Shown here: positions 25,987 to 31,000 of the stretch, one piece after another
Layout of the letters: each line of letters begins with the position of its first letter
Numbering within the stretch: position 1 is the stretch's first letter
Origin: Neisseria sp.
Lineage (GTDB): Bacteria > Pseudomonadota > Gammaproteobacteria > Burkholderiales > Neisseriaceae
DNA length: 64,000 bases
Reading direction: 5' to 3'
NCBI RefSeq assembly: GCF_030527965.1
Contig: NZ_JAUMZU010000013.1
Location: 1-64,000, forward strand
The notes under the pieces: generated by a model
Seen by the model: the letters and a program-made list of their open reading frames with translations, nothing else
Database searches by the model: none
What the model was told of the DNA's origin: nothing
Translations under genes and position numbers: made by a program

Positions 25987-26334
25987 TTACTGATCTTTAA
26001 ACTTATCCAACACCTCAACAGCCGAGCGCAAACGTTGCCATGCCAAACGTTGTTGATCGTGGAAAGCATTCCACAGCGCATCCTCGCTCATCACACTGTA
26101 TTCGCCTTTGGTTTCCAGATTCAGCTTCAAGCCTTCGTCTAAAGCATCGTTATAGCGACTGTATTCACCGTCAAAATAGAATTTCTCCATTTTTTTGGCC
26201 AGCGCCATACCACGTTTCCACTGCTCCTGCGCCGCTTCCAGCTGAGGCAGCAATTCCACCCATTGGCGATACGCTTCTTGTACTTCATCAATCCGCGCCT
26301 GAGCAGCAACGGGGTCTAAGGTTTTCTTTTTCAT
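25987..26334 (-). CDS. DUF4298 domain-containing protein
   Basis: A 115-residue mostly helical protein: EAYRQWVELLPQLEAAQEQW, ALAKKMEKFYFDGEYSRYNDALDEGL and WNAFHDQQRLAWQRLRSAVEVLDKF fit DUF4298. Function unknown. I start at MKKKTLDPVAAQ; an upstream ATG in frame (26373) would begin next to the 20-A tract and has no ribosome site. The A20 tract lies about 40 nt upstream of the start, where promoter or leader would be. Confidence 0.65.
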   Translation of the reverse strand: MKKKTLDPVAAQARIDEVQEAYRQWVELLPQLEAAQEQWKRGMALAKKMEKFYFDGEYSRYNDALDEGLKLNLETKGEYSVMSEDALWNAFHDQQRLAWQRLRSAVEVLDKFKDQ

Positions 26335-26373
26335 AGCGTTCTTTCTAAATGTTAAATGCCTGCCATATTTCAA

Positions 26374-26393
26374 AAAAAAAAAAAAAAAAAAAA
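26374..26393. repeat. Homopolymer of 20 A (T on the minus strand)
   Basis: An uninterrupted run of 20 A, flanked by TTC and CAAAC. It sits upstream of the DUF4298 start and downstream of the A+T-rich two-gene unit. Tracts this long usually slip during replication, and also during sequencing. Confidence 0.8.
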
Positions 26394-26477
26394 CAAACAG
26401 TCAGAGTCAGTATTTTTAATATCGTATAAACAAGACTTAAACTTTAATCAGCTACATAGAATTAAATTATGTACTAT

Positions 26478-26960
26478 TCAAACTTTGGGACTTTTCTTTT
26501 CCAGAAGTTTCTTAAACTCTTCTTTTCTGAGTTGTATCAATTTATTTGGCAAAAATATTGAATATAACAGAGATAGAATAGCAAGCCAAAGATACATAAC
26601 CTCAAGCACACAAATTAACAAACTATCTTTATAATTTGGATTATTCTTGAATAAAACCACTAAAAAAACAAGGATTAAAACACATATGTAGTTGTAGAAC
26701 AAAAAAGTATGTTTAGTATACCTTTGTTCATGCAAATCTTGGCTTAATTTTAACCGCCTCCAATTGGCATTCTCATCAAATTTCATTTCAGAAAACAAAG
26801 TCATAATTGCTATTAAAAAACCCGTGAGGATTGAGAATGCATTAACGATTAAATCAATAGCTTTTTCATTTCCATGAATCAAAGGCTGACCTAAAAAAGC
26901 CAACCAAAATGATATGATAGCAAAAAAAACAAATCGAATCAGCGGCGTATATTTCTTCAT
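26478..26960 (-). CDS. Four-helix inner-membrane protein, second gene of a RexB-like pair
   Basis: A 160-residue protein with four predicted transmembrane helices (7-24, 36-57, 86-104, 113-137), a charged loop between helices 2 and 3 (about 58-85) and a very basic C-terminus (KEEFKKLLEKKSPKV), so both ends should be cytoplasmic. I recognise no domain by name. It overlaps the upstream 338-residue gene by 4 nt, so the two are translated together. Size, helix number and gene order resemble lambda RexB (144 aa, four helices) after RexA. Codon use is far more A+T-rich than the neighbours, a sign of transfer. Confidence 0.6.
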   Translation of the reverse strand: MKKYTPLIRFVFFAIISFWLAFLGQPLIHGNEKAIDLIVNAFSILTGFLIAIMTLFSEMKFDENANWRRLKLSQDLHEQRYTKHTFLFYNYICVLILVFLVVLFKNNPNYKDSLLICVLEVMYLWLAILSLLYSIFLPNKLIQLRKEEFKKLLEKKSPKV

Positions 26961-27973
26961 AATTCTATCAAATTAAGTTGCTCAAGCTCGTGAAAGTAAT
27001 CACGAATTTGATCAAATACTTCTGACTGACTTAAAGTATTTGTACCTTGATATTTTGTAATTTGAATTTTCTTAAACAAGCGCACATCCGTAGGACGAAT
27101 TTTATCCCCTCTCCGTGTTTCAATATAAAATTCACTATCATTTTGATCTGATTCAACCACTTCCATTGCTTGTTGAGTAATAAATTCTTGGGCTTTAAGC
27201 GTAGCTCTCGTATTTCCTTCCAAACTTAATTCTAAGCATACATGAATATCTTCAGCTGTCTTATTTTCCTCATCCGTTGCCTCTTCTTTCATTAATCTTC
27301 TACAAATACTAGCACCAATTTGTTTAAATTTCGTATAAAAATTACCTTCCAATTTTTCATTAAAATCAATCATAGATAATTGATGTATTGATGCATTAAG
27401 ATGTAATTTCTTAGCTCCATATCTTTTAATTAATTCCAGATTATTAAGATTAGCAACAGGTTCAAAACACAAGTTTATTTTTGACAACTTACTTTTTTCA
27501 CCAGAGGGGGTTGAGTTGATTATTTTATCATTTAATCTATTTAAATAAGTGCAAATACTTTCATGACGAAGTCCATTACCTACAAATAATATATGATGCT
27601 CATTTATATAAAGATATGCTTCTTTTGCCACATATGACTGGCCATTCGGCGGTGGCAAGCTATCACCTTCGTCATAAATGATTGGAGCATCATTATTCAT
27701 TGTTCGCATATGCTCGCCTTTAACACCATGCACTATATGAATAGCAATCCCCTGTTTCTCTTTTTTAAGAGATTCATTCTGAATTTCCATATTGCTTAAA
27801 ACAAAGTTAAGATTTCTATATTGAATTCGATAGATAAAATCAAAATATTCAACTTGAGTGTCATTAACTGTGCTCGCGAAAGACAATAAACGACGCAAAT
27901 GGTCCTCCAGATCAAACCTAGATTGTTCTTGGGTAGAGCGTAAATATTGTATATTTTTTGAAATTTTTTTCAT
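26957..27973 (-). CDS. Soluble protein of unknown family, first gene of a RexA-like pair
   Basis: A 338-residue protein with no signal peptide or membrane segment. The N-terminal alpha/beta region holds FDLEDHLRRLLSFA and EYFDFIYRIQYRNLNFVLS, the middle YVAKEAYLYINEHHILFVGNG and INLCFEPVANLNNLEL, and the end is a helical QSEVFDQIRDYFHELEQL. I do not recognise it for certain. The layout (short N-terminal helix, strand-rich segment, EP motif, basic helices) and pairing with a small four-helix membrane protein recall lambda RexA. GGAAAG precedes the ATG. It starts 68 nt after the hrpA stop and may be read through from hrpA. Strongly A+T-rich. Confidence 0.55.
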   Translation of the reverse strand: MKKISKNIQYLRSTQEQSRFDLEDHLRRLLSFASTVNDTQVEYFDFIYRIQYRNLNFVLSNMEIQNESLKKEKQGIAIHIVHGVKGEHMRTMNNDAPIIYDEGDSLPPPNGQSYVAKEAYLYINEHHILFVGNGLRHESICTYLNRLNDKIINSTPSGEKSKLSKINLCFEPVANLNNLELIKRYGAKKLHLNASIHQLSMIDFNEKLEGNFYTKFKQIGASICRRLMKEEATDEENKTAEDIHVCLELSLEGNTRATLKAQEFITQQAMEVVESDQNDSEFYIETRRGDKIRPTDVRLFKKIQITKYQGTNTLSQSEVFDQIRDYFHELEQLNLIEL

Positions 27974-28041
27974 TTATTACTTTCCGAATTCAATTTAAAG
28001 AATAACTTGTATCACATTAATGGTTTTATAGAAATAAGCTA

Positions 28042-31000
28042 TTACATACTACCCCACTCCTTCCTCAGCCTCTTAACCGACACCGGACTAGGCGTTTTCA
28101 ACTCCTGCGCAAACAATGATACACGTAATTCTTCCAGCTGCCATTTAAACATTATCAGGCCGTCTGAAAGCGGCTGGTTTTGTTTTTGCAGAGCGTCAGC
28201 TTTTTCTTGCCACATTTGTTCCAATTCTTGAATTTCCGCTTCTCTTGCCGCGTCGCGGGCGGGGTTGGCGGAGTATTTTTCCATGCGCAAGGTCATGGCT
28301 TTGAGGTACACGGGCAGGCGCGGCCATTGTGTCCACGGCGTGCGGGTAGCAAAACCGGCGGCGAGCAGGGTTTGCAGGCGGTTGCGCAGCAGTTGGGTAA
28401 GCAGGTGTTTGCCGAGTTTGCCGTTAAGCTCGGTATAGGCGGCGGCAGTATCTTGCAGGTAGCGCGATAAGGCTTCTTTTACGGCGGGCAGGCGGCTGCG
28501 GGCGCGTTTGATTTGTTCTTTAAAGGCTTTTTCGTTGCGCGGCAGTTCGTCTTCGCCGATAAAGGCGCGGTCGCAGATGGCGGTAGTCAGGTCGTCGCGC
28601 AAGGTGTCGGCGCTAATGTGTTTCAGCAGCATGGCAGCTTGGGTAAAGCCGTTGATGCCTTTGCCGAGGTCTTTCATATGCTCTTTTAATTGCAATTGCA
28701 TCAGAGCAATCACGCCTTGGCGGTGGGCTTGGGCGGCGGCTTCAGCGGTATCGAACAGGCGCAGGGCGATGTTGCCGTTTTTTTCTTTTTGCAGGGCAAG
28801 GTAGCCGGTTAGCTGCTGCTTGCCGCGGGCAAATTTGATGGATTCGGGCAAGGTGCCGATATCCCATGATGTAACGTTGTCGCGCTCGAATTCTTGAGTG
28901 TTGTCGCGAAAGGTAACGGCAGCAGCTTGGCCAAACTCTTGTTGCAGCTGGTGCAGCTTGCGCCCGATGGTCAATTCTTGCCCGCCGTCGTCAATCACGC
29001 GCAGGTTGAAATAGCAATGGGCGGGCAGCTCGTGCGCCGTCCATTCATCGAGATTGATTTGTTCGAGCAGGCGCATATCGCCGGCGGTTTTGGCGATAAA
29101 ACGGGCAAGCTGGGGGATAATCGCTTCGTTGCGGTTGGGATTGCTTTCGAGAAAACGGGTGGTAAATTCCGGCACCGGTACGCAGATGCGGCGGATTTGC
29201 TTGGGCAGGGCTTTGATAAGCAATTGTATTTTTTCGCGCAACATGCCGGGCACCAGCCATTCCAAGCTGGCAGGATTCAGGCGGTTTAGCACGGGCAGCG
29301 GCAGGCTGAGGGTAACGCCGTCGAGCGGATGGTGCGGCTCGAAGCGGTAGCTGAGTTTGAATTTGCCGTCGGCGGTTTTCCAATAATGGGGAAACTGCTC
29401 TTCGGTGATGTGAGCAGCGGCATGCTGCATCAGGTCGTCGCGGGTCAGAAACAACAGGCGCGGGTTGGCACGTTCGGCGGTTTTCAGCCATGCTTGGAAG
29501 GTGCGCAAATCAGCAAGGGGTTTGCCATTTTTTTCAGGCAGGCTTTGTTGATGTTTATTTGAAAGGCTGTCTGAAACATCGGCAGTTGCGGCGGCTGGTT
29601 CTGCTTGGTGTTGATGATTGCCCGGCAGATTGCCTTCGTGTTGTTGCTGCGGCAGGCGTTCTTCATTACCGCCTGAAAGCATGTTTTCAGACAGGCTCTC
29701 GCCTGCGATATAAAGCTGCGGCAACCTTTGATGATAAAAATCAAATAGGGCTTCTTCGTCCACCAATACATCTTGCCGCCGCGATTTGTGTTCCAACTCG
29801 GCAATCTCGCGAATCAGCTTTTTGTTGTGCACAAAAAAATCGGCTTTCAAATCGCATTCCTGCGCCACCAGCGCGCCACGGATAAACAATTCACGCGCTT
29901 CTTCGGGCGCAACCCGACCGTAAGCAATCGGGCGACGCGGCAATACGGTCAGGCCGTAGAGGGTAACGCGTTCGCTGGCCACCACTTCGCCACGTTTCTG
30001 CGACCAATGCGGTTCGAAATAATGATGGCGCACCAGATGCGGCGCTTCGGCTTCTACCCATTCGGGCTGGATTTGCGCGACATCACGGGCATAGAGTTTG
30101 GTGGTTTCGGTCAATTCTGCCGCCATTATCCATTTTGGTTTGCTTTTAAACAAAGCCGAGGCGGGGAACAGATGAAAATGGCTGCCGCGCGCGCCGAGAT
30201 AATCATGACCTTCGGGCGATTTCATGCCGATATTGGCAATCAGACCGGTCAGCAGGGCGCGGTGGATTTGTTCGTATCCCGTTTCTTTGGCGGCGCGAAT
30301 GTTCGCCCGATGCTGCTTTTTATCCAGCTCTTTTTGCTTCCGTTTCGCCGATAAATCTTGATCGCCGGTGTTTTCAGACAGGCTTAGCTGCGCTTGGGCG
30401 GGAGGCCGTCTGAAAACGTTTTCTTTATTAGCCAAGCCCATTTCCACGGCAATATCGGCCAGCTGTTTGTGCAATTCGCGCCACTCGCGTATGCGCAGAT
30501 GCGAAAGAAAATATTGATGGCACCACTGCACCAACTGTTTATTGCTCAGCCCCTTATCACGCTCGCGCTGAAAGCTGTCCCAAATATTCAGATAAGCCAG
30601 AAAATCGGATTGCTTGTCGGTAAAACGTTCGTGTGCTTTGGCGGCTGCCTCGCGCGCTTCCAACGGGCGCTCGCGCGGGTCTTGAATCGACAGCGCCGCC
30701 ACAATCACCAGCATTTCCTGCACGCAATCGTGTTTTTTCGCCGCCAACAGCATACGGCTGATTTTCGGGTCTATCGGCAGCCGCGACATTTGTTTGCCCA
30801 AGGCGGTGAGGCGGTTTTGCTCGTTGACCGCACCTAATTCCAGCAATACTTGAAAACCGTCGTTGATATAACGCTGGTCGGGCGCTTCTAAAAACGGAAA
30901 CGCCGCCACGTCGCCCAAATTCAACGCTGCCATCCGCAAAATCACCGCCGCCAGATTGCTGCGGATGATTTCCGGATCGGTGAACTCGGGACGCTGATTG

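Follow-up and report, generated by a model that had tools for sequence, protein, structure and literature searches.

The RexAB system of phage lambda keeps other viruses from multiplying in the host cell. RexAB was the first abortive-infection (Abi) system to be linked to phage defence; its trigger is still unknown, and the RexAB-like systems on record in early 2026 numbered only five (PMC12894663). RexABpp (PP_5643/PP_5644), carried by prophage P1 of Pseudomonas putida, is a working defence system in which a RexA-like soluble protein and a protein with four transmembrane (TM) helices are both needed for defence, the soluble partner activating the membrane partner, which is the growth-arresting effector (2026 paper, PMC12894663). 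In Butters gp30/gp31 one partner restrains the other, with the roles reversed (discussion in PMC12894663). The gene pair considered here, A and B, lies on a 64,000-nucleotide (nt) stretch of Neisseria sp. DNA (contig NZ_JAUMZU010000013.1; hereafter the window), and is probably a phage-exclusion (abortive-infection) system of the RexAB type, with A as sensor and B as membrane effector, placed in a chromosomal defence hotspot. Its parts are as follows:

26957..27973, minus strand: gene A, encoding a 338-amino-acid (aa) soluble RexA-like protein, the putative sensor or trigger (open reading frame (ORF), relatives, weak phrog_23561 match)
26478..26960, minus strand: gene B, encoding a 160-aa protein with four predicted membrane helices, the putative RexB-like effector (ORF, TM peaks, relatives, conserved core around TM2)
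26957..26960, minus strand: 4-nt overlap in which A ends and B starts (from the sequence; the same 4-nt overlap in loci L002-L004 and L019-L025)

Both ORFs and their overlap exist as given in a preliminary description of this DNA, and translation of A and B is likely coupled through the overlap. Its account of a four-helix membrane protein with a soluble partner agrees with the Kyte-Doolittle peaks, which predict four TM segments in B (10-28, 37-55, 86-104 and 114-132) and none in A. The same hydropathy method places the segments of lambda RexB at 8-26, 48-66, 84-102 and 116-134. The window pair resembles lambda RexA/RexB (PF15969/PF15968; RexA structure 8TWQ) in gene order, in protein sizes (338/160 aa against 279/144 aa) and in TM spacing. 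It differs from them in that rexA and rexB stand 15 nt apart whereas the window genes overlap, and in having no significant match to either Pfam family. The likeness to RexABpp lies in the combination of a soluble and a four-TM protein; the RexABpp genes stand downstream of a CI-like repressor, with two genes between, and BLAST searches with them return hypothetical proteins only (PMC12894663). A and B are each present as a single copy in their own genome, and in an alignment of relatives the conserved core of B lies around TM2.

A conserved two-gene unit and its place in phage genomes

Separate searches with A and with B matched the same five of 82 genomes of the family, namely the genome of origin, three of the same genus and one of another genus. 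Identity to the window protein is 37-38% for A and 58-59% for B in the three same-genus genomes, and 29% and 42%, respectively, in the fifth. That both ORFs recur in four other genomes, at 29-59% identity and in unchanged order, indicates that they are not chance reading frames. Divergence is faster in A than in B, which would fit a sensor under pressure from varied phages paired with a constrained effector. On viral contigs, the alignment of A located seven loci, all with B downstream, and the alignment of B located 21, of which 14 were newly read and carry A directly upstream in every case; the remaining seven lie on contigs already found through A, so A is present at 21 of 21. A single-sequence scan of these contigs with A confirmed none, although the alignment found seven loci, and searches by tblastn with A in phage and plasmid records and with the Ketogulonicigenium A in phage records gave zero matches.

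Further pairs occur in Rhizobium, in a Hyphomicrobiales metagenome-assembled genome (MAG), in Paenochrobactrum and, with a shortened A, in a genome of the same order (L018), and plasmid-borne pairs occur in Ketogulonicigenium and Sinorhizobium. The order soluble then membrane, adjacent and on one strand, holds for the window pair and for the relatives that were read. In Paenochrobactrum (L028:36-1764) A is shortened beside ORFs that by eye resemble transposase genes, while B is still open. The distribution of the family is patchy: alignment A1 matched two of 399 genomes of the order and alignment A8 one of 369 genomes of the class, the genome of origin being included in the former and the sole match in the latter, and phrog_3482 matched ten of 398 genomes of the phylum, again with the genome of origin among them. 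Some thirty pairs are now in hand, several of them near-identical, and these give a start of sequence depth for analyses of structure, contacts and trigger, a depth that lambda RexAB does not have.

The connection to the lambda locus runs through Escherichia phages. A tblastn search of the phage collection with the Rhizobium B returned four Escherichia phage records at E 4e-3, namely PhiR11_1, PhiR11_1_star and a pair of records for 2G7b; one record of 2G7b and that of PhiR11_1 were inspected. The annotated order in PhiR11_1 is cro (on the opposite strand), cI, a 283-aa protein, a 163-aa membrane protein and N, and this cI-A-B-N arrangement matches the lambda order cI, rexA, rexB, N; distant relatives of the window pair thus hold the position that rexAB occupies in lambda. 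In 2G7b an A homologue follows cI and the B match, which is unannotated there, follows A, with one small ORF before N. The 283-aa phage protein belongs to phrog_23561 (E 9e-167), a family matched weakly by A (E 7e-4) and also by the Rhizobium A (E 1.8e-4). In profile-profile comparison, the neisserial-plus-alphaproteobacterial set matched the phage proteins of the rex slot both in B (P=99.1) and in A (P=95.5), the E-values of pairwise hhalign runs being distinct from database E-values. The phage pairs resemble the window pair in order and in profile-related A and B, but differ from it in their location within the immunity region and in sequence, with identities to the window proteins of 16-18% in A and 24-29% in B. 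DNA of the phage pair is present in seven of 5,426 Escherichia coli genomes.

Other relatives also lie in prophages or near defence genes. The N. weixii pair (L003/L013) is inside a Mu-like prophage with Portal_Mu and a Mu F-like protein, and in L013 an S24-type repressor gene stands two genes upstream of A and a GH108 endolysin gene directly downstream of B. At L015 a helix-turn-helix (HTH) regulator gene is found two genes upstream on the same strand, with an rve-type integrase gene nearby. A repressor or regulator gene is adjacent in the lambdoid relative, next to cI, and two genes away in L013 and L015; the window copy follows hrpA instead. The copy in a Neisseriaceae MAG precedes an Eco57I-type methylase gene and, further on, a D12 methylase gene, and close to the Ketogulonicigenium copy the annotation gives a restriction subunit S gene and a DNA methyltransferase gene. 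The endolysin neighbour in L013, together with weak holin-like matches of B (phrog_263, E 0.056; TIGR01592, E 0.014), would suit a phage lysis pair with B as the holin. This is very unlikely: the PhiR11_1 pair sits in the immunity region between cI and N, and the chromosomal and plasmid copies L029, L033 and L034 have no endolysin gene among their listed neighbours, so that outside the neisserial prophage the context does not fit.

Pfam, PADLOC and NCBIfam offer no convincing family for either A or B. Besides phrog_23561, the PHROGs collection gave a weak match of A to phrog_3482 (E 1.2e-3). Against sequences of the Protein Data Bank (PDB), phmmer with A returned just five designed proteins (E >= 0.33), taken as chance, and the profiles of A and B returned nothing relevant. 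The preliminary description had offered Kiwa (KwaA, with four helices, and KwaB, with DUF4868) as an alternative, and the general layout of a four-helix membrane protein and a soluble partner is indeed alike. A Kiwa-like system is nevertheless extremely improbable, and this proposal had to be dropped: KwaA, KwaB and DUF4868 went unmatched at E <= 10 in PADLOC or Pfam, both of which presumably contain Kiwa models, KwaB was absent from the five PDB sequences listed for the A profile, and the Kiwa gene order is the opposite one.

Relationship to lambda RexA and RexB

Several results weigh against placing the pair with RexAB. PF15969 (RexA) and PF15968 (RexB) were absent from the Pfam matches at E <= 10, PADLOC and NCBIfam hold no curated match for the pair, and a first round of hhalign comparisons gave P < 3 for every group against RexA/RexB. 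The profile comparison proposed in the preliminary description was also run by hhalign with a deeper Rex set of five sequences, including the divergent pair of L195, and did not bear out a match: the co-linear alignment of A with RexA spanned 203 columns (P 1.3, E 0.04) and that of B with RexB 87 columns (P 4.3, E 0.0096), neither of them significant. Natural decoys scored above RexA for A in three of 89 cases and above RexB for B in one of 89, and the reversed RexA profile scored 20.5 against A, compared with 21.5 for the real one, but over 35 columns rather than 203. The rex-slot phage proteins fare no better against RexA/RexB (P 0.16 for A and 0.28 for B), and the slot could therefore have been filled by an unrelated system. 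For RexABpp the likeness is one of published build, and kinship to the window pair is at most putative. RexBpp is at least 181 aa long (mutant Y181H), compared with 160 aa for B, and when 15 membrane proteins were compared with the seven RexBpp residues that PMC12894663 names, none had the full set, the best reaching three of seven at any offset. Moreover, in the ORF list, neither a repressor gene nor a prophage gene was noticed alongside the window copy.

Shuffle controls, 100 per Rex profile, used free column shuffles for RexA and blocks of seven columns for RexB. None of the 100 RexA shuffles reached the score or the length of the A-RexA alignment, whereas eight of the 100 RexB shuffles scored as high as the real profile and one was both as high and as long. 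Direct homology of the pair to lambda RexA/RexB is suggested by the profiles at a level that is not significant, and common descent is a possibility only. The divergent RexA/RexB pair (L195:891-2202; 304 and 156 aa) was the sole PF15969 match among 369 genomes of the class.

These comparisons bear on the possibility that A and B form a sensor/membrane-effector defence system that shares no common descent with RexAB and has come to occupy the same genomic niches by convergence. The lack of significance of the RexA/RexB profile comparison agrees with it, as does the absence of a RexA/RexB match among the rex-slot phage proteins themselves. A third point comes from soluble proteins of the phrog_3482 type (L054, L055 and L059), which are related to A (P=98.9) and precede membrane proteins that, with the three aligned together, do not match B (P=0.5). 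The systems of this type share an A-like soluble part and have different membrane partners, which are diverse among themselves, so they are weak evidence; they hint that effectors may be exchanged, in other words that sensor and effector may be recombinable and the membrane part replaceable. We regard convergence as possible but rather doubtful. It concerns descent and the RexAB-type reading concerns function, so the two are not exclusive and their odds overlap.

The RexAB-type reading of function stands apart from descent in this sense. The RexAB-like proposal of the preliminary description gains partial support, since the test of descent from RexAB yielded an alignment that is co-linear but not significant; what stands is the kind, which is probably RexAB-like given the lambdoid rex slot, the prophage relatives near repressor genes and the defence-rich site. 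By analogy with RexABpp and lambda, we hold with fair confidence that the pair would also work like RexAB. Soluble A would be made together with B, a predicted four-helix inner-membrane protein that would stay inactive in a healthy cell. During the replication of an infecting phage, A may sense phage DNA or a DNA-protein intermediate and may then switch B on, and B would damage the membrane, with growth stopping before progeny are made. A toxin-antitoxin-like pair, with one partner restraining the other and serving the upkeep of a prophage or cassette rather than defence, could likewise be a small overlapping operon in mobile contexts, and the reversed roles in Butters gp30/gp31 offer a precedent (discussion in PMC12894663). 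We consider this unlikely, since full-length relatives of A measure about 300-340 aa, a large size for an antitoxin, and since the soluble partner of RexABpp activates its membrane partner (PMC12894663).

On a wider view, there is about an even chance that A and B represent a patchy but widespread RexAB-like superfamily in prophages, plasmids and chromosomal defence sites of Pseudomonadota, one that has no named Pfam, PADLOC or NCBIfam family, in which two or more kinds of membrane effector are combined with the soluble sensor and of which Neisseria stores cassettes after hrpA. If this were true, lambda RexAB would be a single local form within a modular class of sensor-plus-pore defences.

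A hotspot of A+T-rich cassettes after hrpA

The window copy, which follows hrpA, looks like a chromosomal cassette standing on its own. The names hrpA (for an RNA helicase) and DUF4298 (for the downstream gene) follow the preliminary description. Two further features mark the site:

27974..28041, minus strand: 68-nt gap between hrpA and A (promoter scan)
28042..28044, minus strand: hrpA stop codon, the edge of the cassette hotspot (in 31 of 39 genomes, the genome of origin included, the kb that follows hrpA has a GC below 0.40)

Of 45 genomes of the genus, again counting the genome of origin, 43 yielded hrpA. DNA following it was taken from 38 others (G023, G024, G031 and G041 were left out, and two pieces are shorter than 8 kb). 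While the first kb is mostly of low GC, the interval 4.5-8 kb from hrpA has a GC of 0.44-0.61 in the 38 genomes with data, and gene content after hrpA differs between most genomes. Proteins of the low-GC cassettes (59 proteins, 33 of 38 genomes) match 323 PADLOC families at E <= 1e-10, compared with 33 for 59 proteins encoded farther downstream, these figures being matched families and not the number of proteins with any match. Because cassette proteins were picked for low GC and proximity to hrpA, whereas the controls (59 of 98 eligible proteins, no more than two from any genome) had higher GC and lay farther away, the selection itself could account for some of the difference. Among the 25 best-listed PADLOC families, those of the cassettes include AriA, Old, GajA, AbiLi, PtuA and type II methylases, whereas each of the 25 families listed for the controls matched just one protein. 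Pfam names among the cassettes comprise AAA_15/21, C5 and N4/N6 methylases, GmrSD_N, HamA, RloB, Vsr, ApaLI, OLD TOPRIM, reverse transcriptase and SocA/Panacea. Across the genus, the site after hrpA is thus a hotspot of differing A+T-rich cassettes, many of which match defence families. Elsewhere, some relatives of the pair lie near restriction-modification genes.

The gene downstream of the pair has relatives in 40 of 45 genomes of the genus. At the 29 other loci read, hrpA was found within about 1.5 kb in none; the window locus fails the same test, and other cassettes may intervene. Among the titles listed in a literature search none dealt with the hrpA site, which may still have been published, perhaps in work on minimal mobile elements. 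The site offers a simple address for seeking further defence systems in Neisseria. In G020 and G037 (L161:883-1083 and L159:887-1093) the hrpA 3' end is repeated some 0.8 kb farther downstream, and between the two copies is an ORF that by eye resembles a PIN-toxin gene, as if a cassette had brought its own gene end.

Composition and minor features of the locus

The pair is markedly more A+T-rich than its neighbours, as had been described, with a GC of 0.309 (A 0.315, B 0.298) compared with 0.542 in hrpA, 0.465 in the downstream ORF and 0.499 in the window as a whole. It is the lowest-GC stretch of the window, and the 12 lowest-GC windows of 1,496 nt all begin within 26101-26651. The region holds six promoter-like matches, compared with a shuffle mean of 9.1, and none in the gap between hrpA and A is convincing, so that read-through and a weak promoter of its own are both possible for the pair. 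The preliminary description had also pointed to the absence of uptake sequences from the pair, which is true but uninformative, because only about 0.9 copies of the commonest word tested would be expected there by chance. Among the uptake-like words tested, TGCCTGTCTGAA is the commonest, with 37 copies in 64 kb, whereas the core GCCGTCTGAA has only two copies in the window, which suggests a different uptake dialect in this genome.

A hairpin with a T-rich tail, resembling a terminator, lies within the coding region of B (26884-26905, minus strand), in a region with three such sites against a shuffle mean of 0.7. A run of 22 A at 26372-26393, immediately upstream of the minus-strand gene that follows the pair, is possibly a phase-variable tract or an assembly weakness.
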